Below are positions 30,519 through 55,706 of a stretch of 60,967 nt of DNA, one piece after another. Position numbers and translations under genes: made by a program. The notes under the pieces are model-generated. The model was not told the DNA's origin. It made no database searches and was given only the letters and a program-made list of their open reading frames with translations. Each line of letters begins with the position of its first letter. Position 1 is the stretch's first letter. The stretch comes from Bdellovibrionales bacterium (lineage in GTDB: Bacteria > Bdellovibrionota > Bdellovibrionia > Bdellovibrionales > UBA1609), in the NCBI GenBank assembly GCA_020628165.1, contig JAHDFM010000009.1, positions 35,623 through 96,589 of the forward strand. Reading direction: 5' to 3'.

Positions 30519-30556
30519 CAAAAAAAGATCTTTCTATTTATTAAAGAGGTCTTTTT
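30519..30556 (-). terminator. Probable terminator of the pterin/pseudouridine operon
   Basis: An imperfect stem (AAAAGACCTCTTT with AGAAAGATCTTTT, read on the minus strand) includes the pseudouridine synthase stop codon and is followed by seven T. Confidence 0.5.
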
Positions 30557-31304
30557 TAAAAGAGTACTTGATGAGTTTTTGTGTTTCAGAGCGAGTCAAT
30601 ACTCGCCATTGTTCTGGTTTGAGTTCACCAAGCTCAATAGGTCCTATGCGTAGACGTTTTAGCTCTGTAGTTTCAAGGTCTATGAGTTTGAGCATTCTTC
30701 GAATCTGACGTTTCTTGCCTTCTTGTAGAATTAGTTTAATGGTGTTTTTGTCAATAACTTCAACGCAAGCTCTTTTCAAAGGCTTGTCATCAAGCTTCAG
30801 GCCATGACTCAAAAGACTAAGCTTTTCTTGAGTCATCTGACCTTTAAATTTAACTAGATACTCTTTGTCGACCTTTGAGCTTTCACCAATTATTTGTTTA
30901 GCGACCACTCCGTCTTGAGTGTAAATAATGAGGCCTTTTGAATTGATGTCTAAGCGACCAGCAGGTGCTAAGTTCTTTAAGTTGAGTTTTAGGTTCTTAT
31001 CAGAAGCTCCTGCAATGCGGTTATTTTTTGTGATCAGTTTCAAAGCCGTTTCATAACCATCTTCTGGTTGTGAACTGACATAGCCTAAAGGCTTGTTAAG
31101 GATCAAAGTGATTTTTTGTTGCAAAATGTTTTCAGCAGTTTTAGTGAGCACAATCTTATCTGATTCAGAGACCTTAAAGCCAAGTTGAGAGACCGCCTCT
31201 CCGTTGACTAGAACAAGACCTTGCTCGATCAGTTTGTCGGCCTCTCTGCGAGAGCATAGACCAAGCTCTGACATTCTCTTTGACAGGCGAATAAGAGTGC
31301 TCAT
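30534..31304 (-). CDS. 23S rRNA pseudouridine synthase (RluB/RluF/RsuA family)
   Basis: 256 residues. An S4 RNA-binding domain (IRLSKRMSELGLCSRREADK, residues about 5-60) is followed by the catalytic domain with the motif AGRLDINSKGL, where Asp119 is the catalytic aspartate. K-Y-L-V and the final GKKRQIRRMLKLIDLET complete the family signature. Opening and length resemble RluF or RluB, but which uridine is modified cannot be told. It is the last gene of a four-gene operon; its ATG overlaps the stop of the PTPS-like gene (ATGA), an unexpected partner. Confidence 0.85.
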   Translation of the reverse strand: MSTLIRLSKRMSELGLCSRREADKLIEQGLVLVNGEAVSQLGFKVSESDKIVLTKTAENILQQKITLILNKPLGYVSSQPEDGYETALKLITKNNRIAGASDKNLKLNLKNLAPAGRLDINSKGLIIYTQDGVVAKQIIGESSKVDKEYLVKFKGQMTQEKLSLLSHGLKLDDKPLKRACVEVIDKNTIKLILQEGKKRQIRRMLKLIDLETTELKRLRIGPIELGELKPEQWRVLTRSETQKLIKYSFKKDLFNK

Positions 31305-31687
31305 GGCGTTTTGTTGACCTCACTTGAAAATGTATTTTTATTTGTTTCTTTTAATTGGCACTGAAAATAAATTGAATTTAAATCAGTACTTTGCAAGTCA
31401 TTATGAATGCTTTGGATTAAATTTTCACCAGTAGGGATTTCAAGGATATTGTTCAGGTTTCTACGGTCATATTTGCGGATGATTTTATCTTGAATGACTT
31501 TGTCAGCAAAATCTCGATCTAAACTGAGACCACTCTCTACATGAATAGAGTTTTTAAAAGTGACCAGTAGGTCCATGCTGTGGCCATGAAAGCTAGTTTC
31601 TTTTGTTTTCTCGTTCGGATTGTCACAGGCCATGATCAAGTGTGAACAGTAGAGTGAGTATCTTTTGGTAATATAAACATTAGCCAT
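31301..31687 (-). CDS. Divergent PTPS/QueD-fold protein (paralogue B)
   Basis: 128 residues from ATG 31687, which overlaps the previous gene by 8 bases. The T-fold zinc-site residues appear at His16 and H-G-H (34-36). It keeps a C-D-N-P-N sequence (Cys21) like the C-N-N-P-N of animal 6-pyruvoyl-tetrahydropterin synthase, but 12 residues separate the Cys from H-G-H instead of three to five. The catalytic D-H pair reads D-R here (YDRRNLN, Asp74-Arg75). Glu88-Asn89 and Glu114 match the pterin-binding positions. It is therefore a degenerate paralogue of the upstream gene. It could be an inactive subunit, an enzyme with another reaction, or half of a heteromer. Confidence 0.75.
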   Translation of the reverse strand: MANVYITKRYSLYCSHLIMACDNPNEKTKETSFHGHSMDLLVTFKNSIHVESGLSLDRDFADKVIQDKIIRKYDRRNLNNILEIPTGENLIQSIHNDLQSTDLNSIYFQCQLKETNKNTFSSEVNKTP

Positions 31688-32090
31688 AGTAATCGGCCCA
31701 AAGGTCTGTGCTCTCATAAAGGCGAACTTTGTGAAGCTTTAGTTCAGGAGAGTTTTTTAAGTGATTGATAATATGATCATAACAAAACTTAACAATGTTT
31801 TCAGTGGTGGGCATGTTACTTTTGAAGTGCTCGACATCTGTGTTCAAAAACTTGTGGTCAAGTAAATCGGTGACCTCTGTCAGGATGGCGTCAAGATCTG
31901 CAAGGTTCATCACCATGCCGGTTTCAGCATCAATAGGTCCAGTGACTTCGGCCTCTAGAGTGTAGTTGTGGCCATGGCCATGTTCGCTGTAACTGGAGCC
32001 AAAAGTGTCTTTATTTTTTTGATCTGACCAATTAGGGTTGTGATACTTATGGCCAGAGCTAAAATGTATTTTGCGAGATAAAGTGATCAT
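31680..32090 (-). CDS. 6-pyruvoyl-tetrahydropterin synthase-like protein (paralogue A)
   Basis: 136 residues. It closely follows animal PTPS: TGMVMNLADLDAIL, then LLDHKFLN, M-P-T-T-E-N and VRLYES. The zinc ligands would be His14, His39 and His41 (HGHNY). The catalytic Cys of PTPS/QueD is replaced: FGSSYSEHGHGHNY has Ser where F-G-K-C occurs, and it has an E-x-x-H-G-H arrangement (Glu36). That arrangement recalls PTPS-III proteins, where Glu replaces Cys and 6-hydroxymethyl-dihydropterin is made, bypassing FolB. Asp78-His79 are intact. It overlaps both neighbours, forming an operon with the SDR. Confidence 0.85.
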   Translation of the reverse strand: MITLSRKIHFSSGHKYHNPNWSDQKNKDTFGSSYSEHGHGHNYTLEAEVTGPIDAETGMVMNLADLDAILTEVTDLLDHKFLNTDVEHFKSNMPTTENIVKFCYDHIINHLKNSPELKLHKVRLYESTDLWADYYG

Positions 32091-32821
32091 TTCAGTGTAA
32101 TGCCTCCATCGATGACAAAGTCAGAGCCTGTGATCCAGTTATTTGATTCTTCACTTAAAAACTTCACTATAGATGCAATGTCCGTAGGTTTTCCAATCTG
32201 ACCAAGAGGTTGAAGGTTGTTGATGAAGTCCATATTTTCTTTGTCATTTTTGTCAAAAGAGTGAAGTGGAGTGTCTATGATTCCAGGGCTCACAATGTTA
32301 ACCTTAATAGACTCACTGGCTAGTTCTAAGGCCTGTACTTTTGTCATGTAAGTGAATGCCGCTTTTAATGCGCCATAAGCGCCTGAACCTTCGACGGGTC
32401 TGTGGGCCGCAGTTGAAGAAATATTGATGATGAACTTGTGAGGCTGTTGTGATTTTTTTAACAGCGGCAGGCAAGCTTGTGTAAGTTGCGCAGGCCCTAA
32501 AAGATTGAGTTGATACATCATGTTCCACTCATCATCAGTGGTCTCGCTGAGGTTGTTTGCAAGGTATATGCCTGCATTATTCACTAATCCACAAAGAGGT
32601 GTGTCCAAGTCAGAAAGGCGCGAGGCTAGGTCTCTGATGCTAGAAGCGGAGTTTAAGTCACATGGCTCGCATAGGGGGGAGTTATTAAGCGTTTCTGCTG
32701 TCGAATTGAGTTTTTCTAAATTTCTTGCAACCAGCACCACGCGGAATCCTGATTGGTCAAGAGTTTGAGCGATGCTTTTTCCAATGCCACTACTGGCTCC
32801 GGTGACGAGAACAGTTTTCAT
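32087..32821 (-). CDS. Short-chain dehydrogenase/reductase (possible pterin reductase)
   Basis: 244 residues. Classical SDR motifs are TGASSGIG (7-14), NNAG (81-84), Ser135/136 in NISS, and Y-x-x-x-K at Tyr149/Lys153. VSPGIIDTPLHS follows. It reduces a carbonyl with NAD(P)H. Because its stop overlaps the ATG of a PTPS-like gene, a sepiapterin-reductase-like or dihydromonapterin-reductase-like role is plausible. The sequence alone does not prove it, since SDRs are very diverse. It is the first gene of the operon, with GAGG seven bases before the ATG. Confidence 0.85.
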   Translation of the reverse strand: MKTVLVTGASSGIGKSIAQTLDQSGFRVVLVARNLEKLNSTAETLNNSPLCEPCDLNSASSIRDLASRLSDLDTPLCGLVNNAGIYLANNLSETTDDEWNMMYQLNLLGPAQLTQACLPLLKKSQQPHKFIINISSTAAHRPVEGSGAYGALKAAFTYMTKVQALELASESIKVNIVSPGIIDTPLHSFDKNDKENMDFINNLQPLGQIGKPTDIASIVKFLSEESNNWITGSDFVIDGGITLK

Positions 32822-32863: not shown

Positions 32864-34381
32864 TTACTTTTTCGGACGCAAATCACTCAAGTTTAATTGA
32901 TTAAGACTATTGACGGACCAGCCTGTGTAATTATTATCACCTAACATCGCAAAGTGAATTTCGCCGAGAGGAATCCATTTGTAACTTTTCATAAGTTGTT
33001 CAAGGCCTCTTTGACAAACGGTGGGTTTGTTTTTTGTATGTGGTGAAGAGAGCTCTTCAATGATCGAATCAAAGTTGATGTTATTAAAGCGAATGTAGTT
33101 CTCAAAAGAGTCTTTACCGAAGGTTCTCAAGGCTGAGAGGCAAGATGGTTGGTTAACGCCAACACCTTTTCTGAAAAGTGAATGTTTACCATTTCGTAAC
33201 TCCTCAAGGTAAAGTCCTTGTTCAACTTCTTGTAAACGAACTTTCAGGCCGAGATGTTTTTTCCATTGGTTGTGAGCCCACTCCATTCCTTTGCGAATGT
33301 CTTTTCCGCCAAGTTTGCTGAAATGCAGCGTCCAAGATTTTTGTTGAACATTTTCTGGCAAAGTTTCAAAAATTCGCCGGGCCTCCTTGGGGTTGAACTC
33401 AAAGCAGGTTTTTTGAGTGTAATAAGAGGTTGGCAGTCCTGGGCAACCAGGTTGACCTTTAGACTGGTAAATATGCTGCAACTCTTTGTAGTTTAAAGAG
33501 AGCGCTAACGCCTTTCTGAGTTGTGGATGTTTATTTAACTCACCTGTCAGGCCAATATAATCAAATCTTAGGATGGGCACAAAATGAAAATTTTTGTTTT
33601 TTTTGTGTGATTCAAAATAGTGTGTTGGGAGCCGTCTTAAGAAGTTTAACTTTTTATTTTCATAAAGATTTACAGCGGTTTCGTCGTTTTCTAAAAAGTA
33701 AACTTTAACTGGCGGGCGAAGAGAGTGTTTGTCATCGTAATGCGGGTTTGGTTTTAAGGTTAGGAATTTGCCTTTTTGCCACTGATCAATCATATAGGGG
33801 CCGTTGCTGATGATAGAGTGTGGGGAGTTTTGGCTGTTTGTAAAAGTTGATTCGTTTATAAGCGGGGCGTAGGCGGGGTTTGCTAGGGTATGTTTGAAGT
33901 CAGTATCTGGCTTTATGAGTTGAAAAGAAATAGTGTTATGGTCGGGAGCTTGAATGCCGGTGGATTTGAATTTAACTTTGTTTTGTAAGTAGTCTGTAAC
34001 ACCGGCAATATTAATGAGTTCTGCCTTTAAAACAGCCTTGCTGTCTAGCAGGCGCTTGAAAGAATTGAGGTAGTGCTGGCTGGTGATGGTCATGCCATTG
34101 CTGAATTTTTTTTGTTTGAGTTTACAGATTAAAAGCGTTTTGTTTTGCCAAAGACAAGTTGTTACATTTTCATTCATAAGTGTTTTATCAAAGAAAACAA
34201 GACCTCTAAATACGTTATTAAGAACATAGTTACCACTTGCGCCTGAAATCTTTTGCGGGTCGAGGCTATGGGGTTCTTTGAGGAGGTTAAATGTAAAATA
34301 ACCCAGCTCTTTGTCTTGTTGTGTGCACTGAGTGTTTAAGAATGAGACGATCAGAATTGAAAGAAAACAAAGCTTGGTCAT
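32864..34381 (-). CDS. Oligopeptide-type ABC substrate-binding lipoprotein
   Basis: About 505 residues. A signal peptide with a lipobox-like FLNTQC precedes the SBP family 5 fold: FNLLKEPHSLDPQKISGASG, L-N-N-V-F-R-G-L, F-S-N-G-M-T-I-T-S-Q-H-Y, N-G-P-Y-M-I-D-Q-W and L-R-K-A-L-A-L-S-L-N. It would bind peptides or similar ligands outside the inner membrane for an ABC importer. No permease or ATPase genes are adjacent, so it is an orphan binding protein. The start at ATG 34381 is chosen because it gives a proper signal peptide; upstream starts add residues before it and no Shine-Dalgarno decides. Confidence 0.8.
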   Translation of the reverse strand: MTKLCFLSILIVSFLNTQCTQQDKELGYFTFNLLKEPHSLDPQKISGASGNYVLNNVFRGLVFFDKTLMNENVTTCLWQNKTLLICKLKQKKFSNGMTITSQHYLNSFKRLLDSKAVLKAELINIAGVTDYLQNKVKFKSTGIQAPDHNTISFQLIKPDTDFKHTLANPAYAPLINESTFTNSQNSPHSIISNGPYMIDQWQKGKFLTLKPNPHYDDKHSLRPPVKVYFLENDETAVNLYENKKLNFLRRLPTHYFESHKKNKNFHFVPILRFDYIGLTGELNKHPQLRKALALSLNYKELQHIYQSKGQPGCPGLPTSYYTQKTCFEFNPKEARRIFETLPENVQQKSWTLHFSKLGGKDIRKGMEWAHNQWKKHLGLKVRLQEVEQGLYLEELRNGKHSLFRKGVGVNQPSCLSALRTFGKDSFENYIRFNNINFDSIIEELSSPHTKNKPTVCQRGLEQLMKSYKWIPLGEIHFAMLGDNNYTGWSVNSLNQLNLSDLRPKK

Positions 34382-34445
34382 GCTAAGAAACTTATTGTAA
34401 TATAAAGAAGTAATCAAGCCTTGTGGGGTAACTAGGGGAAATGTC

Positions 34446-46927: not shown

Positions 46928-49900
46928 TTACTCATAATTTACATCAATTTCATCAATTGAACATTGACTTGTTTGTGATAAGTCAGACCTCAGGTAACCA
47001 ATAACTTCAAGTTCACCAGAGCCGAATTGGGTTTCGAACTGTTTGATATTGTTAGTGACATCAGAAGCTATGTTTCTGTCGCTTTCTGATGAGGCAGGAA
47101 CCCATGAAGTGCCATCGTGGTAGAAATAATTGGGATTTCTGTAGAGTCTGAAGGTGGCGCAAGCGTCAGCATCAATGTTGGCATTGATAATGGTCGTGAA
47201 GTTAATAGCTGTTTTAGGTTTAACCTCAACATAGTCTCTTGTGTATTTGGTGGTGTTACTAGGGTTGAGATTAATGTTTGTGACATTTGGCAAGCAAGGA
47301 GTGCCACTGCAAGCGGTGTTGTTGTCTGCTTGCATGTAAACACGGTACTGGGCAAATTGGTTCGCTGCAGGTGTTACAAATTGTGAATAATTTGTATTTA
47401 AAAATTCTGGACGGCCGGGTAGTGTCATCCCAGATGTTTCGATCTCGTCAGACACACAAATTCCAGCGTCACTGTCTGATGTGTTCAGAGCGCAGTTAAA
47501 GGTAAGGTCTGAAGAGCTACGGTTAAAAAGCTCATTGTAATAAGTGGTGCCATCACCACCTGGCCCAATGAACTCAGCTTTATAAGAATCATCATCGTCA
47601 TCGTTATTTAAAGTTCCATCGCCGTCGCAATCGCTAGCACTACCTGCAGGGGCAACGTTATAGCTTTTGCAATTACAGTCAGAGTCGATACAGCTTTTGA
47701 CTTGTAGGTTCACACTATTTGCACCTCTTCGGTATAGTTGGATGATCTCATCATTTGTAAGCACTCTATCCCAAAGGGCAGCTTCATCAAGACGACCACT
47801 ATAAAAGTTCGAAGCGGTTAAGCCACCATCCCACTCTTGCCCAAAAGAAAAAAGGTTCGTTGCGGAGAGTGGGCTTGTCAGTGTGTGCGTTCCAGCAGAT
47901 ATGCCGTCTACAAAAAACTCAACATCATCAGCACTGTAAGTCAGTACTAAGTGATACCAGCCACCATTAAAGTCATTGAAAATTGGCGCGGTAATCGGTG
48001 CTCCCATAGATGTGTGCACGTGAAACCTTTTTGAGGTGCTGATGCCAATTAATAGTCGGTTGCCACCAGTGCTAGTATTGAAACTTGCAATGTATTGAGC
48101 AGGGTTAGTGAAATTTTCTGGCTGCACCCAAAGGCTAATGGTAAAAGCTTGTCCTGCAACCAATGGCGGTACACTATTGTCTTCGATGTACCCTGTTGAC
48201 CCATCAAACTTCACTGCTTTATTGAATCTACCTGATTGGTTAGGTGTCACACCACCAGATATATTTAAGTTCTGTCCTTGCCCAGAAAAGTCTTGAAAAT
48301 CAAAAGTCCCTGGATTGACTGAGTCAGTTGTTGTTTCATTGAAAGGCCAGTAGCGAATCAACCCTTCATTGAGTTGACTAGTTACGCCAGCATAACTTGC
48401 TGATGATTCTTCATCGGGAGAGCCGTCATTATTGACATCGCCAACAAGTTCTTTGCCAAATGGAAGTGAAGTCGCCCACGAAAGATCAGGCCACGGTGCG
48501 GTCGTACTGCCCAAATTGATTACTGATGAGTCAAAGTGACTGGCAAAATTTTGTTTTTGGCGATTGAAAATAGTAGCAATGTTAACGGGAGAAAGAGTTG
48601 TGTTCCAGACAACAAGATCATCGATACGTCCACCGAAAGTTCTGTTGTTGTCTGTTTGCCAGTTACCGATTCTAGCGTTTGTTGTGGTCGCACCAGGGAG
48701 GGTGTATGAGCCTGTTTGGCTGTTGACCAATTGTCCATTGTAGTAAAACTCTCGCAAGGTGGCTGACTGTACGTATGTAATGTATGACCAAGTGTTAAAA
48801 GGAATAAAGAAACCAGAGTTAAAAGTGGAGCCCATCATATAGGAAACCAATTCACCATTATCCCTTACTGCTAATGAGTATCCGTCGGCTGCAAAACTAC
48901 TTGAAGACTTGTCTAAGACACGATCAGCATTTCCTGCAGGATCACGGTAGACCCAAGCTGAAATAGTAAAGGAACTGCCGTTAAGAGAGAGTGGGTTACT
49001 ACTATCAATAGACCCTAGATCTAAATACTCATCAGTTCCATTGAGAAGTAAAGCATTAGAACCGATCTTAGCTTCAGCGGTGCTTGATGTGGCATTAGCC
49101 GGGGAGCCGTGGTTATTGTTGCCAGAAGAGTCTTGCCAGTTACCATCCATTTTCCAGTAGCCAACAATGTTGCTCCATTGAGGGGTCCAGTCTGGTGATA
49201 ACTCTGTTTGGTCTGCAAACGTATTTTTTTGTGCTGACCAAATTGCATTCACTTGCTGAGGAGTTGCGGCTTCAGCTAAAAAAGCAACTTCATCAAGTTC
49301 ACCCATAAAGGACTGGCTTCCTACAGCTTGGCCAGTTCCAAAAGATAAATCAGAGTTGAAGTTAGGAATGCTTGCACTGTCTTCGCTGGCTGTAACATCT
49401 AGTACACCATTGATGTAAACCTTAGCTCGTTCGCTCATAGATAAACTGCCGTCATAGACTAGGGCAAAGTGAGTCCAGACTCCAGCTTCAACAAGAGCAT
49501 TTGTTTCAAAGCGATTGCCAAAACCAACAATGTCTACTTTGAGTTTATTACTCTCATGCCAAATGGTGAAAGCTTGATTATCGTTAGATGTGATTCTTTT
49601 TGAAATAATAGCGTCGTAGTCCGTCATATTACGAAGAGGCTTCACCCAACCCATAATAGTTAACTGCGCACGTCCATCAAAAAGATCAGAGTCGGGAACT
49701 GTGAAGCGATCATTGTCGCCATCAAAATTAGCGGCTTGGTTAACTCTACCAGGTGCTAAATGGATTTGTCCTAAGGGTGTTCCTGTCAATGCTGATGTTG
49801 AGCTGTCGTTGTAGTTGCCATCAAATTTCCAATACCCTAAAAGACTAGATGCAAGTTCTGGACGAATGGTGGCGATGTCTTGAGCGGTACCTGCAAATTG

Positions 49901-50185
49901 TAAAGTGACATGATCGTTATTGGTAAAGACAGTGCCATTATGTTCGCCTAAGTTGAAATCAGTTCCTGATGTGGTGAAGTCTAAAGCCCTTAACTGCACC
50001 TGACCACCGCTGAATTCAATCAATTCATCATCAAAATCATAGTTGTTACCAGAATTAAACTGCCAAGTGCTATCAAAAGCTGAGCCTAAAGTAAGTTCTG
50101 TTTTGTCATAACTGCAGGAGGAAAGAGAGAGTCCCAAAGCTAAAACTAGTAAAATTTTATAAAAAATAAATCGATTAAAAAACAA
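46928..50185 (-). CDS. LamG/TSP3 surface lipoprotein, paralogue 1
   Basis: 1085 residues. The lipobox LSLSSC is followed by SYDKTELTLGSAFDSTW, a block repeated in the next two paralogues. Three LamG (concanavalin-like) domains follow, each opening with a GYWKFDGN or RYWPFNE strand. Between the second and third lies a constant block, F-G-K-E-L-V-G-D-V-N-N-D-G-S-P-D. The end is a constant region of about 260 residues with DCDGDGTLNNDDDDD, a thrombospondin-type-3 calcium motif, and eight or more cysteines. It is probably a surface adhesin or glycan-binding protein. The start is TTG 50185, with GAGG at 50194-50197. Confidence 0.8.
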   Translation of the reverse strand: MFFNRFIFYKILLVLALGLSLSSCSYDKTELTLGSAFDSTWQFNSGNNYDFDDELIEFSGGQVQLRALDFTTSGTDFNLGEHNGTVFTNNDHVTLQFAGTAQDIATIRPELASSLLGYWKFDGNYNDSSTSALTGTPLGQIHLAPGRVNQAANFDGDNDRFTVPDSDLFDGRAQLTIMGWVKPLRNMTDYDAIISKRITSNDNQAFTIWHESNKLKVDIVGFGNRFETNALVEAGVWTHFALVYDGSLSMSERAKVYINGVLDVTASEDSASIPNFNSDLSFGTGQAVGSQSFMGELDEVAFLAEAATPQQVNAIWSAQKNTFADQTELSPDWTPQWSNIVGYWKMDGNWQDSSGNNNHGSPANATSSTAEAKIGSNALLLNGTDEYLDLGSIDSSNPLSLNGSSFTISAWVYRDPAGNADRVLDKSSSSFAADGYSLAVRDNGELVSYMMGSTFNSGFFIPFNTWSYITYVQSATLREFYYNGQLVNSQTGSYTLPGATTTNARIGNWQTDNNRTFGGRIDDLVVWNTTLSPVNIATIFNRQKQNFASHFDSSVINLGSTTAPWPDLSWATSLPFGKELVGDVNNDGSPDEESSASYAGVTSQLNEGLIRYWPFNETTTDSVNPGTFDFQDFSGQGQNLNISGGVTPNQSGRFNKAVKFDGSTGYIEDNSVPPLVAGQAFTISLWVQPENFTNPAQYIASFNTSTGGNRLLIGISTSKRFHVHTSMGAPITAPIFNDFNGGWYHLVLTYSADDVEFFVDGISAGTHTLTSPLSATNLFSFGQEWDGGLTASNFYSGRLDEAALWDRVLTNDEIIQLYRRGANSVNLQVKSCIDSDCNCKSYNVAPAGSASDCDGDGTLNNDDDDDSYKAEFIGPGGDGTTYYNELFNRSSSDLTFNCALNTSDSDAGICVSDEIETSGMTLPGRPEFLNTNYSQFVTPAANQFAQYRVYMQADNNTACSGTPCLPNVTNINLNPSNTTKYTRDYVEVKPKTAINFTTIINANIDADACATFRLYRNPNYFYHDGTSWVPASSESDRNIASDVTNNIKQFETQFGSGELEVIGYLRSDLSQTSQCSIDEIDVNYE

Positions 50186-50203
50186 TCATATTACCTCATA
50201 AAT

Positions 50204-50230
50204 ATATCGGTCATATTTGTTAAACAATTA
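50204..50230 (-). promoter_or_regulatory. Sigma-28-like promoter of LamG paralogue 1
   Basis: On the minus strand: TAATTGTT, 11 bases beginning TAAC, ACCGATAT. The -10 ends only six bases before the GAGG of the ribosome-binding site. It matches the promoters at 55707 and 59217. Confidence 0.6.
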
Positions 50231-50577
50231 AAATTATTAGTAATTTATATTTATTAAAGGTGTATCGAAATGAGACATAAAATTTTTTTTAAAAATTTTC
50301 CCTTTTTTAAGGTAAGAACTTAATAAAGTACCTAGTTTTCTAGGTTTACAACTTCAGTATCAACTTTAATTAATGGTGTATTTATTAATCTGTTTTATTG
50401 GCATGAGTATTGAAATATAAAGAGTTTATTGGTTCGTTGTCTCAATTTGAGTAACAAAATTATAGTCTTTTTTGTATAAAATTTTGACACCTGAATGTCA
50501 GTAATTGCCCAAGTGCCTTTAAGTGAAAGGGATTGTAAATAATTATAATAATATTGAAAAAGGAGATAAGTGTTTTT
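50231..50577. other. AT-rich intergenic region upstream of the Cys/His protein gene
   Basis: About 350 bases, very AT-rich. TGACA-6-TGTCA (50485-50500) is an operator-like inverted repeat. AAAAAGGAG at 50557-50564 is the ribosome-binding site of the next gene. I see no other gene. Confidence 0.4.
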
Positions 50578-52428
50578 ATGTTTTTAAAATTGATTTTGTT
50601 CATAATTTTTGTATCTCCTTTAACTGCTTTTTCTAGCTTTTCTACCAATATGAAGCAGGAATCATTTCAGTATAATAGCAAGTTAAGATTTAAAAAACCA
50701 AATGTTGATAGAGAGCAACTTGAGAGAGAATTATTAACTTTAGATAGAATTGTATACCTTTTTGAAGAATTTTATGGCTATGGATTCTTTGAAGAGCAGA
50801 TTGCATCTGCCTATGATAGAATTGAATACTTATACTCAGATATTTCGCCTGGAAATCAATATGTATCGTCTCAATTATCTAACTACACTCAAGCTATGCT
50901 TGAGTTAGCTGATAACAATACTTTATCAGATGATTTGCTAAACAAAATAGCAAAAAAACAAATGCAATTTTTACTTTCTTCTAACCCCCAAGAAGGTAAG
51001 GATTTTTTTTCCGTTGCTTTGAAACCAAATTCTTGCACTTTGAAGAGCATTCAAGAAAACACAAGCAGTTACATTGAAATTGATTTTCAATGCACTGCAA
51101 ATGTTGTTTTAAACAAACATGAAGAAATTAAAACTAAATTTACATTAATCGTACCTGAAAATCCGGACACTTTCTATATAGATCAGTTGTACAAACGTTA
51201 CGAGTCCATCATAAAAAAATGGTTTGAACTTTATCCATATAACAATAGCCAAAAAGACAAACATATCGATTTTATGAAAAATATATTAGAAACTATAGAA
51301 AAAGGAAATTGGATGCGGTCACTGTCTCATAGCTTATCTGATCAGGTAATTTGCAGAAAAAATGATGATTTTGCGGTGCAAGTCATTCATATGGCAGATA
51401 TTTTTAGTTTAGATAAAAATTGTCCCAGAGAATATAAAAAAAAGCACCTTGTAAAAGCGACGTTCACGCATCAACAGAAAGAAGTTTCTCTTGCAAATAA
51501 GTTGTTTTATCCAGAGTATGACAAATTATTTATCGATGAAAAACCTGTCGAAATACTCTATCTTTCAACAGGTAATGAAGGTTATCAAGATGATGGAAAA
51601 ATTAGCATGACACAAAATACAAGTGTAAGATCTTTATTACAGCAACTCGTTAAAAGTGGGTATCAATTAGATCAAAACACTCAAGCTTTATTCTCGCATA
51701 ATATAGATTTGAAAAAGTTTTTTGGAGATGCAAACTTAGATTTAGATACTCTTATATACAGTCCATTCATTTTTCCAATAAAAGTTAGGCTTGTAAAAAG
51801 AATTGAAAATCAAGATTTTGTAATTACAGTTCTTAATAGAGGGTGTACAGACACAAATGGTTATAATATTGAATTAAGTTATCTTTACTTAGGTGAAAAA
51901 CAAGAAGAAAATAGTCAAATTGAATCAATGATTTGTAATGAAGATTATTTTTATGAGTACAGTAAAAAATATATTAAACAACATTCTGTAATAGCCTTTG
52001 AGGGGCACGCTGGTTATGGTGACAATATATATGGGGTTTTCGAGAATGAATCCGTTTACAAAGATGATGATTACAAAGTTCTACTGTTGGGTGGCTGTGA
52101 TACTTTTTATTATGGTTCATTTGATATACCAAAATATATAAGTCAAAATTATGATAATTCTAATGTTGATATGGTCACTACACTTGGCCCAATGTTATCC
52201 TCTTCTCAACCATTCTTGTATTTTGTTAATAACTTAGAGATTGCAAGTCAAATTTATGATAAAAAATTATCACAAGAGCAGGCATATAATTTAAGTTGGC
52301 AAAGTATGATCACAAACATGGACTTTGAATATAAGAATTCTTATGCAAATTTAATGAATAGTTATTTGTTGTATATGGTTACTAATGTCGAGGAGAATAA
52401 ATTTTTACCAAAAAAGAAAGATAATTAA
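50578..52428 (+). CDS. Secreted protein with a possible caspase-fold His/Cys dyad
   Basis: 616 residues. The signal peptide is about 1-20 (SPLTAFSS). Residues about 30-470 are not recognised. Near the C-terminus, VIAFEGHAGYGD (His477) and, 30 residues later, KVLLLGGCDTFYYG (Cys507) follow the pattern of clan-CD proteases and CHAT domains: a hydrophobic strand then G-H-x-G, and a hydrophobic strand then G-C-x-T. That identity is a hypothesis. The gene is visibly more AT-rich than its neighbours, uses many AAA/AAT/TTA codons, and interrupts the LamG array on the opposite strand, so transfer is likely. AAGGAG lies about 12 bases before ATG 50578. Confidence 0.6.
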   Translation: MFLKLILFIIFVSPLTAFSSFSTNMKQESFQYNSKLRFKKPNVDREQLERELLTLDRIVYLFEEFYGYGFFEEQIASAYDRIEYLYSDISPGNQYVSSQLSNYTQAMLELADNNTLSDDLLNKIAKKQMQFLLSSNPQEGKDFFSVALKPNSCTLKSIQENTSSYIEIDFQCTANVVLNKHEEIKTKFTLIVPENPDTFYIDQLYKRYESIIKKWFELYPYNNSQKDKHIDFMKNILETIEKGNWMRSLSHSLSDQVICRKNDDFAVQVIHMADIFSLDKNCPREYKKKHLVKATFTHQQKEVSLANKLFYPEYDKLFIDEKPVEILYLSTGNEGYQDDGKISMTQNTSVRSLLQQLVKSGYQLDQNTQALFSHNIDLKKFFGDANLDLDTLIYSPFIFPIKVRLVKRIENQDFVITVLNRGCTDTNGYNIELSYLYLGEKQEENSQIESMICNEDYFYEYSKKYIKQHSVIAFEGHAGYGDNIYGVFENESVYKDDDYKVLLLGGCDTFYYGSFDIPKYISQNYDNSNVDMVTTLGPMLSSSQPFLYFVNNLEIASQIYDKKLSQEQAYNLSWQSMITNMDFEYKNSYANLMNSYLLYMVTNVEENKFLPKKKDN

Positions 52429-52441
52429 GCCATAATCTGAT

Positions 52442-55400
52442 TTAATTAAAATTTATATCAATTTCGTCAATGGTACATTGGTCACTTTGTGTTGGATTAG
52501 ATTTTAAGTAGCTAATGACTTCTAACTCGCCTGCACCAAGTTGTGTTGCAAATTGCTTTATATTCTCTGTAACTTCAGAGGCTATGTTTCTGTGTGATTC
52601 ATCACTGACTAGGACCCATGAAGCTCCGTCGTGATAATAGCTGTTAGGGGCGCGAAACAGTCTGAAACTTGCACAAGCTTCGGCTTTGATGCTAGCACTT
52701 TCGATGCTAGTAAATATGATAGGTGACTTTGGTTTGATTTCTACATACTCACTAGCATATTTGATCATGTTGGTGGGGTTAAGATTTATTGACGAGACTT
52801 CTGGCAAGCAAGGCTTTCCGTTGCAAGAAGTATTGTTATCTGCTTCCATGTAAACTCGGTATTGGGCATATCTGTTTGAAATTGGTGATACAAACTGGGT
52901 GTAATCTATGTTTAAAAACTCAGGGCCGTTTGGTTTTGAATTTCCACCAAATGTGATTTCATCTGGGGCACAAACACTAGCGTTACTGTCAGTTGTATTA
53001 AGTGCACAATTAAAAGTGATATCAATAGGAGCGCGATTAAAGAGCTCACTGTAGAAAGTAGAACCATCCCCGCCAGGGCCGATGAATTCAGCACTGTGGC
53101 TATCATCGGTGTCTGAGTCATTGAGTGTACCATCGCCGTCACAATCAGTGGCATTTCCAGCTGGTGCCACGTTATAGCTTTTGCAGTTACATGCAGTATC
53201 GATACAGCTTTTCACTTGCAGTTTAACTCTGTTGGCACCTCTGCGGTAAAGTTGTTGGACTTCAAGTGATGTGATAGGCCTGTTCCATATGGCTGTTTCA
53301 TCTATCCTGCCAAAGAAAAAATCAGAAGGACTGCCTAGATCCCACTCTTGACCTAAGATCCAGTCTCGTCCCGGTGTGACTGTACCAATGACGGCATTGA
53401 GTGTTTGGCTCCAAAGCAATGAGCCATTTAGGTAAAAATGAACATTACTGCTAGAACCATCAATATCAGATATTGTCACAGCTATGTGCTGCCACTCAGA
53501 ATCGATACAAGTTCCATTTTCATAGGTCACTCCTCGGACTCTTACGTGATAGAGGTCTGAAAAACAGCCTATGACAACTAAGTTGTCACCGGATAGGTTG
53601 TGTTTAGAAAAAAGTGACTGTCCAAAATTCTTGGTAAATTCCACAGGTTTTACCCACATAGAAAGAGAAAAGTTATTCCCAACTTCAAAATCGCCCACTT
53701 CTACATATTGATTTGACCCTTCCGTAAGTTCGATAGAGCTATTTAACTGACCAGGACTATTTGTTGCAACGCCGTTTGTTTCTGTGCCATGTCGAGATGC
53801 CCCAGACTGATCGATAAAATCAGTGCTTCCTGGAGCTAGATTCAATGATGTGTCGTTGAAGGACCAATAGCCAATGAGACCATTATTTAATGTTTCAAGT
53901 AATGAAGTATAACTTGTCATATTGTCATAGTCAGTATTGCCATCATTATCAAAGTCGCCAACAAGCTCTTTGCCAAATGGCAGACTGGTCACCCAAGATA
54001 TATCTGGCCAAGCAGAAGTTTTGCTACCTAAATCGATAACTTCTGAGTCATAGTGGCTTGCGTATTTTTGTTTTTGTCTTTCAAATATGATTTTAACTTC
54101 TGAAGCCGTGAGTGCTGTTGTCCATATAGCAATGTCGTCTATGTTTCCTAAAAAATAATTCCCAGCTGTGGTAGAACTACCGATGAAGGCAGCAGAGGTA
54201 GGGCTTGACTGTAATGGTCCAGTAAGTGCTTTAGTGTCTCTTAATAATCCATCGACATACATACTTGCAGTTCCATTTTTGTAGATGATAGCAAAGTGAG
54301 TCCATTGGTTAACTGGCAATAGCTCTCCAGAGTTGATATAGCTATTGGTAGCACTTGAGTTGGTGATGCGAGCTTGCAGGCGACCTTGAATGCCACTGGT
54401 GTTGCCAGCACACCAGATAGCAATTCCTTGGGCGGTATCAATGATCCTTTCAAAACTGCAGGTCGTACTTGTTGATTTCACCCAACCTGTGATGGTGATT
54501 TCATTAAGTCCTTCAATGGCATCGATGTTTGGTAAATCTATAGAGTCACCAGATCCGTCAAAATCAGCTGACGCAGAACCAACTTTTTGGTCATTTTCAA
54601 AGAAGGTGTCACCAGAAAGCGCACCGTGATGACTGTTTCCCGAATAGTCTTGTGCGTTGCCATCTAATTTCCAGTAGCCAGCGATTTCGTTCCAGTGTGG
54701 GGTCCAAGAGCTGTCAAGATGAGTCATGTCTGCATAATTTAAATTTTGTTCAGTGTATAAGCTATAAATTTCAGATGGAATAAGCTCACTTCTCCATATT
54801 GTTAAATCGTCGATAAGAGCTGTAACTGAGCCAGTTCCAACTAAGTCAGTAGCGCCAATGATTAAAGGATTTGCTGTATTGCCCATGTCTCGATTTATAG
54901 TGATATTTTCAGTATCTTCGAGCGTTCCATTCACATAAAGTTTAAGCTCTGTTTCTGTCATGACAAATGCAATGTGATACCATTTATTATCGAACACATT
55001 TGTAATTGACCTTACGATAAATGGGTTGTTCTCTGTTCGTATCCTTAATCTAATTTTTGAAGTGCCATTTTCTCTTTGGACAATCCAACCATCAGAAATG
55101 CCATTGTGTTTTTCCAGGATTGTGTTCCATGGAGCTGTTTGTGCACTGGCATCAGACTTCATCCAGAAAGCGATAGACATGGTTCTTTCAATATTAGATG
55201 CAAAGGTGTTCGCATACGAAAGAAAGTTTGTATTGTTAAGGTTTAGAGAGTGCTCGCCAACCTTTCTTTCATTGCTATAAAAGGAACTTGAAGATTCAGT
55301 AAGATCTATGTCGTTTGCTGTGCTATCGAGAAGATTCTGCTCAAAATTCCAGTGAGCAATGATTTCAGATGAGTGATTGGTAAGTAAGTCGATAGAGTTG

Positions 55401-55690
55401 CTGTTTTGGTTGCTAAGTGGTTTTAGGTTGTTATCTAAAGTTGTACCAACATTATTTCCATTGTTAAAGTCATTTCCAATATGCTCTAAGTCTAGAGGTT
55501 TTAACGAAACTTTCCCATTGGAGAATTGTATTAAATTTTTATCAAAATCAAAACTGTTGCTTGAGCTGAAGTCCCAAGTCCTATCAAATGCAGAGCCTAA
55601 AGTGAGTTCAGTTTTGTCATAACTGCAGGCAGAAATAATTAATATATTAATTATTAGGAAATTAAAATAATTAAATCTTTTAGTAAACAA
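52442..55690 (-). CDS. LamG/TSP3 surface lipoprotein, paralogue 2
   Basis: 1082 residues. The lipobox IIISAC leads into SYDKTELTLGSAFDRTW. It has three LamG domains (EIIAHWNFEQNL, AGYWKLDGNAQDYSGNSHHG, IGYWSFNDTS) whose sequences differ strongly from those of paralogue 1. The constant blocks ASHYDSEVIDLGS, LPFGKELVGDFDNDG and the TSP3 motif DCDGDGTLNDSDTDD are kept. The start is TTG 55690: GAGG at 55697-55700 is six bases upstream and the geometry matches paralogues 1 and 3. A longer frame starts at 55702 but covers the ribosome-binding site. Confidence 0.8.
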   Translation of the reverse strand: MFTKRFNYFNFLIINILIISACSYDKTELTLGSAFDRTWDFSSSNSFDFDKNLIQFSNGKVSLKPLDLEHIGNDFNNGNNVGTTLDNNLKPLSNQNSNSIDLLTNHSSEIIAHWNFEQNLLDSTANDIDLTESSSSFYSNERKVGEHSLNLNNTNFLSYANTFASNIERTMSIAFWMKSDASAQTAPWNTILEKHNGISDGWIVQRENGTSKIRLRIRTENNPFIVRSITNVFDNKWYHIAFVMTETELKLYVNGTLEDTENITINRDMGNTANPLIIGATDLVGTGSVTALIDDLTIWRSELIPSEIYSLYTEQNLNYADMTHLDSSWTPHWNEIAGYWKLDGNAQDYSGNSHHGALSGDTFFENDQKVGSASADFDGSGDSIDLPNIDAIEGLNEITITGWVKSTSTTCSFERIIDTAQGIAIWCAGNTSGIQGRLQARITNSSATNSYINSGELLPVNQWTHFAIIYKNGTASMYVDGLLRDTKALTGPLQSSPTSAAFIGSSTTAGNYFLGNIDDIAIWTTALTASEVKIIFERQKQKYASHYDSEVIDLGSKTSAWPDISWVTSLPFGKELVGDFDNDGNTDYDNMTSYTSLLETLNNGLIGYWSFNDTSLNLAPGSTDFIDQSGASRHGTETNGVATNSPGQLNSSIELTEGSNQYVEVGDFEVGNNFSLSMWVKPVEFTKNFGQSLFSKHNLSGDNLVVIGCFSDLYHVRVRGVTYENGTCIDSEWQHIAVTISDIDGSSSNVHFYLNGSLLWSQTLNAVIGTVTPGRDWILGQEWDLGSPSDFFFGRIDETAIWNRPITSLEVQQLYRRGANRVKLQVKSCIDTACNCKSYNVAPAGNATDCDGDGTLNDSDTDDSHSAEFIGPGGDGSTFYSELFNRAPIDITFNCALNTTDSNASVCAPDEITFGGNSKPNGPEFLNIDYTQFVSPISNRYAQYRVYMEADNNTSCNGKPCLPEVSSINLNPTNMIKYASEYVEIKPKSPIIFTSIESASIKAEACASFRLFRAPNSYYHDGASWVLVSDESHRNIASEVTENIKQFATQLGAGELEVISYLKSNPTQSDQCTIDEIDINFN

Positions 55691-55706
55691 AATACACCTC
55701 AATTTA

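Follow-up and report, generated by a model that had tools for sequence, protein, structure and literature searches.

Two overlapping genes of a Bdellovibrionales bacterium each encode a protein with the fold of 6-pyruvoyl-tetrahydropterin synthase (PTPS), and each protein lacks part of the catalytic machinery. Do the two together make up one enzyme? The genes lie in a 60,967-nucleotide stretch of DNA, which was analysed as a whole and is referred to as the window. Nar is said to have described in 1994 that the PTPS active site joins zinc and Cys from one subunit to Asp-His from another. Known PTPS is built of six identical subunits (PMC10767420), and its triad is called intersubunit in the title of Buergisser 1995, a paper cited there. 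PTPS motifs are CxxxHGH in PTPS-I/QueD, CxxxxxHGH in PTPS-II and ExxHGH in PTPS-III (PMC5041015). A search of a limited literature collection gave no relevant paper on heteromeric or bimodular PTPS, which does not prove absence. The locus contains the following features.

32864..34417 (-): 517-aa ORF, extracellular solute-binding lipoprotein-like as judged by eye; recurrent upstream neighbour
32087..32821 (-): short-chain dehydrogenase/reductase (SDR), upstream of A with a 4-nt overlap; conserved neighbour
31680..32090 (-): PTPS subunit A, 136 aa, PTPS-II-like, with H14, S33 (Cys position), H39/H41, D78-H79 and E126
31992..31994 (-): Ser33 codon of A, replacing the catalytic Cys
31854..31859 (-): Asp78-His79 codons of A, proposed partner of the B zinc site
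31680..31687 (-): 8-nt overlap of A stop and B start
31301..31687 (-): PTPS subunit B, 128 aa, with H16, C21, E30 (Cys position), H34/H36, D74-R75, G87-E88 and E114
31625..31627 (-): Cys21 codon of B, a loop residue off the catalytic position by alignment
31598..31600 (-): Glu30 codon of B, at the QueD catalytic Cys position
31463..31468 (-): Asp74-Arg75 codons of B, replacing Asp-His
30534..31304 (-): RsuA/RluF-type pseudouridine synthase gene, downstream of B with a 4-nt overlap; conserved neighbour

The SDR, A, B and pseudouridine synthase genes are chained on the minus strand by overlaps of 4, 8 and 4 nt. Both A and B belong to the PTPS family, scoring 110.2 and 44.6 bits, respectively, in a profile scan against Pfam PF01242 (cut-off 22.4). 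The coordinates and the eight-base overlap of two PTPS-fold reading frames, as given by the initial annotation, are confirmed. Both proteins stay below the cut-off of 89.25 bits of the QueD model NCBIfam TIGR03367 (A, 62.5; B, 36.7).

Nearly the whole of subunit A can be aligned with rat and human PTPS, with E values of about 1e-23 to 1e-24. Motif reading finds all its zinc ligands (H14/H39/H41) together with D78-H79, the combination of three zinc His plus Asp-His that marks PTPS-II, and its zinc ligands, Asp-His and Glu are the same as in the rat and human enzymes (1b66, 3i2b). The difference lies at the catalytic Cys: Ser33 of A aligns with Cys42 of rat PTPS (1b66), and the PTPS-II motif CxxxxxHGH reads SxxxxxHGH. 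Asp-His and a Ser in place of Cys had both been noted before and are borne out by these alignments. A second difference is one of assembly, since the six subunits of PTPS-II are all alike (PMC10767420) whereas A is accompanied by a conserved putative second subunit without Asp-His.

The zinc ligands of subunit B are H16/H34/H36, and D74-R75 stands in for Asp-His, as the initial annotation had read it; Asp-His within one polypeptide, a mark of PTPS-I/QueD, is thus missing. Glu30 falls on the catalytic Cys of the QueD-type 2oba (KETSFHGH aligned with KCGRLHGH), turning the QueD motif CxxxHGH into ExxxHGH. A model of B predicted from 14 B sequences (pLDDT 89.0, pTM 0.82) matches solved chains with Z scores of 14.9 to 2oba and 14.8 to 3i2b and 4ntk, placing B in the PTPS fold. 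B therefore has its fold in common with PTPS-I/QueD (2oba, 4ntk) but differs in the missing Asp-His and, in the host genus, in having Glu30 for Cys. In the alignment of the 14 sequences, which are 21–56% identical to the window's B, residues H16, H34, G35, H36, G87, E88 and E114 are invariant. Such invariance of zinc His and Glu is not what a decaying pseudo-subunit would be expected to retain.

Cys21 of B had been put forward as the catalytic Cys that would work with Asp78-His79 of A, shifted along the loop from its usual position. The residue is retained in three congeners despite the loss of the normal Cys, and it occurs in no other B in the alignment. It aligns with no catalytic Cys, Glu30 occupies that position, and the block holding it (residues 21–30 of the B model) has a mean pLDDT of 57. 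A catalytic role for Cys21 is accordingly very improbable. With Glu30 rather than Cys21 at the catalytic position, neither subunit of the window has a recognisable catalytic Cys.

The same gene pair is present in related genomes. Motif states were read in 19 A–B pairs from 12 genera of the class (15 in the first 60 genomes and four in a wider draw), and this recurrence indicates that the arrangement is not due to chance; a scan of genome contigs returned distant MAGs only. The gene order SDR–A–B–pseudouridine synthase recurs in many genera. The end of A overlaps a possible B start in 13 of 14 pairs examined, by a plausible 1–14 nt in 12; the overlap is ambiguous in G034, and G029 has a 4-nt gap. 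All B domains fall into a single clade, and each of them adjoins or is fused to an A-type domain. Asp-His is absent and the three zinc His are retained in 18 of 18 complete B copies (B of G033, truncated at the end of its contig, was excluded). The catalytic position of B varies by genus: some have the Cys, others have a Glu at −3, and the three pair-bearing genomes of the host genus all have a Glu at −4. In G010, a 99-aa ORF without HGH (L050:3414-3713) is flanked by an intact A on one side and the pseudouridine synthase gene on the other and is possibly a decayed B.

The A subunits of these pairs fall into three groups. In seven of the 19, including the host genus with its Cys-to-Ser change, Asp-His is retained and a zinc ligand or Cys is lost. 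Six are intact and could act alone, which counts against a composite site. In the remaining six (G014, G022, G027, G035, G063 and G064) Asp-His is missing, together with Cys in G022; as their B partners also lack it, complementarity is not a universal rule. A was also found without an adjacent B, and here it is intact in 38 of 41 cases, compared with 6 of 19 for A with B. Fisher's exact test gives p = 2e-6 for this contrast with kinship ignored; on the tree the difference is not significant, there being at most four independent contrasts among related rows, and it is best taken as a pattern and not as a proven correlation. Synonymous sites between congeners are saturated or nearly so, and dN/dS was therefore left unused. 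Relatives with A alone had been named in advance as evidence against a heteromer. They do exist, but Cys and Asp-His are both present in the A proteins concerned, as would be expected if A is self-sufficient in those genomes, and a heteromer in this one is left unrefuted.

Natural fusions of the two domains also occur. Ten two-domain proteins from six genera, one of them from the host genome, were aligned. In all ten, the N-domain keeps D81-H82 and is missing one or more of its zinc ligands, and the C-domain keeps three zinc His, Cys177 and Glu263 and lacks Asp-His. The C-domains all carry CxxxHGH, as does part of the B clade. In a domain tree built on few columns and with many unresolved forks, the N-domains branch with A, and the C-domains group with B (98% SH-aLRT). 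Asp-His has been lost from the fusion N-domain in two genomes, G010 and G028, in which separate A-type proteins have it. The host-genome fusion (244 aa, contig C56, L055:3548-4282) reads YDHSFVN without HGH in its N-domain and KCSGLHGH without Asp-His in its C-domain.

The fusion of G034 was modelled by AlphaFold2 (pLDDT 88.6, pTM 0.86). Its strand 131–140 is followed two residues on by strand 143–158, and its N-domain matches human PTPS with a Z score of 18.1. Over its whole length the model matches chains that contain two T-fold domains, namely uricases (Z about 12–13) and GTP cyclohydrolase IB (Z about 11), and the prediction is therefore that the two fusion domains lie next to each other in a single barrel. 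Bimodular QueF also consists of two T-fold domains in one chain. Uricase and GTP cyclohydrolase IB carry out other chemistry, whereas the fusions consist of two PTPS domains, one of which has zinc/Cys and the other Asp-His.

The conserved overlapping pair, the Asp-His-less B with its zinc ligands and Glu, the complementary fusions and the intact lone A all support a heteromer. As judged from sequence comparison, the products of the overlapping genes are probably the halves of a single pterin-making enzyme, and each can supply catalytic parts that are missing from the other. We consider it somewhat better than an even bet that A and B assemble into a single heteromeric PTPS-fold enzyme whose active site is composed of parts of both. 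B would contribute the zinc site (H16, H34, H36), Glu30 and the C-terminal Glu114, A would contribute the Asp78-His79 that B lacks, and the site would form at A–B contacts; the reciprocal site, with the zinc of A and the Asp-Arg of B, would be dead or bind ligand only. In its general form, the model has B or C-domains bring the zinc/Cys part and A or N-domains bring Asp-His. The idea of a heteromer that rebuilds the active site, as first proposed, is thus backed by the comparison, and the Cys21 chemistry attached to it is not. The window pair's composite site would be free of Cys, made of zinc, Glu30 and Glu114 from B and Asp78-His79 from A, and so depart from the PTPS-I, -II and -III motifs (PMC5041015); the want of a recognisable catalytic Cys also counts against the model. 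A more specific version, to which we give somewhat less than an even chance, is an obligate two-gene PTPS in which B is a zinc/acid half-site, A supplies Asp-His, a Glu (ExxxHGH) has taken the place of the usual Cys and a bimodular version exists in the same genome. The motif states, the conservation of the pair, the complementarity within the fusions and the predicted folds of B and of a natural fusion are results of the analysis; a physical A–B complex, which subunits face each other, their stoichiometry, the geometry of the active site, the reaction and the product are inferred.

The host genome (3.19 Mb, 99% complete) contains five PF01242 matches: A, B, both halves of the 244-aa fusion and a 122-aa protein (contig C13, L056:2936-3304), an A-type paralogue with Asp-Gln and no HGH zinc motif. 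None of these five domains holds a canonical complete PTPS site. QueC, QueF and FolE2 are present, and so a composite or variant PTPS would be needed if queuosine is made de novo. GTP cyclohydrolase IA gave no match over its cut-off in this genome, and neither FolB nor HPPK was matched. These two are absent from the host (G000) and from G002 and present in the congeners G001 and G003, an apparent within-genus loss of de novo folate synthesis. Zinc-less proteins like the 122-aa paralogue recur in six or more further genomes, where they are neighbours of genes from the same families.

The missing folate genes bear on the suggestion that A might act alone as a PTPS-III-like enzyme through ExxHGH. 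In PTPS-III (Plasmodium, FolB bypass) Glu replaces Cys, as it does in B, and the PDB titles of 3m0n and 3lze call E37 catalytic; this Glu sits at −3 (ExxHGH), in contrast to −4 in B (ExxxHGH), which has no ExxHGH. With FolB and HPPK missing from the host, a PTPS-III role is unlikely, and a FolB bypass was rejected as the function of the pair. A does contain the ExxHGH string, via E36, but both congeners have Ser there, and the suggestion is weakened accordingly. We regard it as unlikely that A by itself is the enzyme, with Ser33 or Glu36 serving for Cys, and B a non-catalytic regulatory or structural subunit. A retains its zinc ligands, Asp-His and Glu126 and has the ExxHGH string, and the six other paired A proteins that are intact fit such a role; the seven A proteins that have lost a zinc ligand or Cys and kept Asp-His do not, nor do the invariant zinc ligands and Glu of B, and a folate bypass would be useless to this host.

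Alternatively, the pair may no longer make tetrahydropterins, its subunits being pterin or metal binders in another role whose catalytic parts are decaying. Cys is gone from both subunits in the host genus, six pairs lack Asp-His entirely and the zinc-less A-type paralogue exists alongside, all of which would agree with decay. Within the genus, however, B retains zinc ligands and Glu and A retains zinc ligands and Asp-His, and the fusions retain the complete complementary set. Decay is in our view improbable, slightly more so than catalysis by A alone.

For the composite A–B enzyme, the likely substrate would be 7,8-dihydroneopterin triphosphate, to be converted to a tetrahydropterin. The SDR gene next door suggests a biopterin-like cofactor as the product, and the host genome encodes a biopterin-hydroxylase-like protein of ~582 aa. 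Identity of the SDR (32087-32821) with sepiapterin reductase was considered but found no support, its matches being to generic SDRs only. If the composite model is true, the intersubunit site of PTPS has been divided between two dedicated subunits, which are also found fused in one chain, and an active site would clearly have undergone subfunctionalisation. Annotating COG0720 genes one by one from their motifs can then fail, the catalytic unit being a pair, and where bacteria possess QueC and QueF without a canonical QueD, such pairs would be candidates for the missing enzyme.

A second type of adjacent PTPS pair was seen in other genomes (L073, L074, L075, L076, L077, L078 and L079). One protein is mostly of the ExxHGH type, with Asp-Glu in place of Asp-His, and the other carries CxxPHGH and Asp-His, so that the two look complementary. 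Elsewhere in the window, similar lipoprotein-like proteins of ~1085 aa (46928-50185 and 52442-55702) lie on either side of a 624-aa ORF (50554-52428), and positions 50001-52000 have a GC content of 28%, compared with ~39% in the surroundings, possibly marking acquired DNA.
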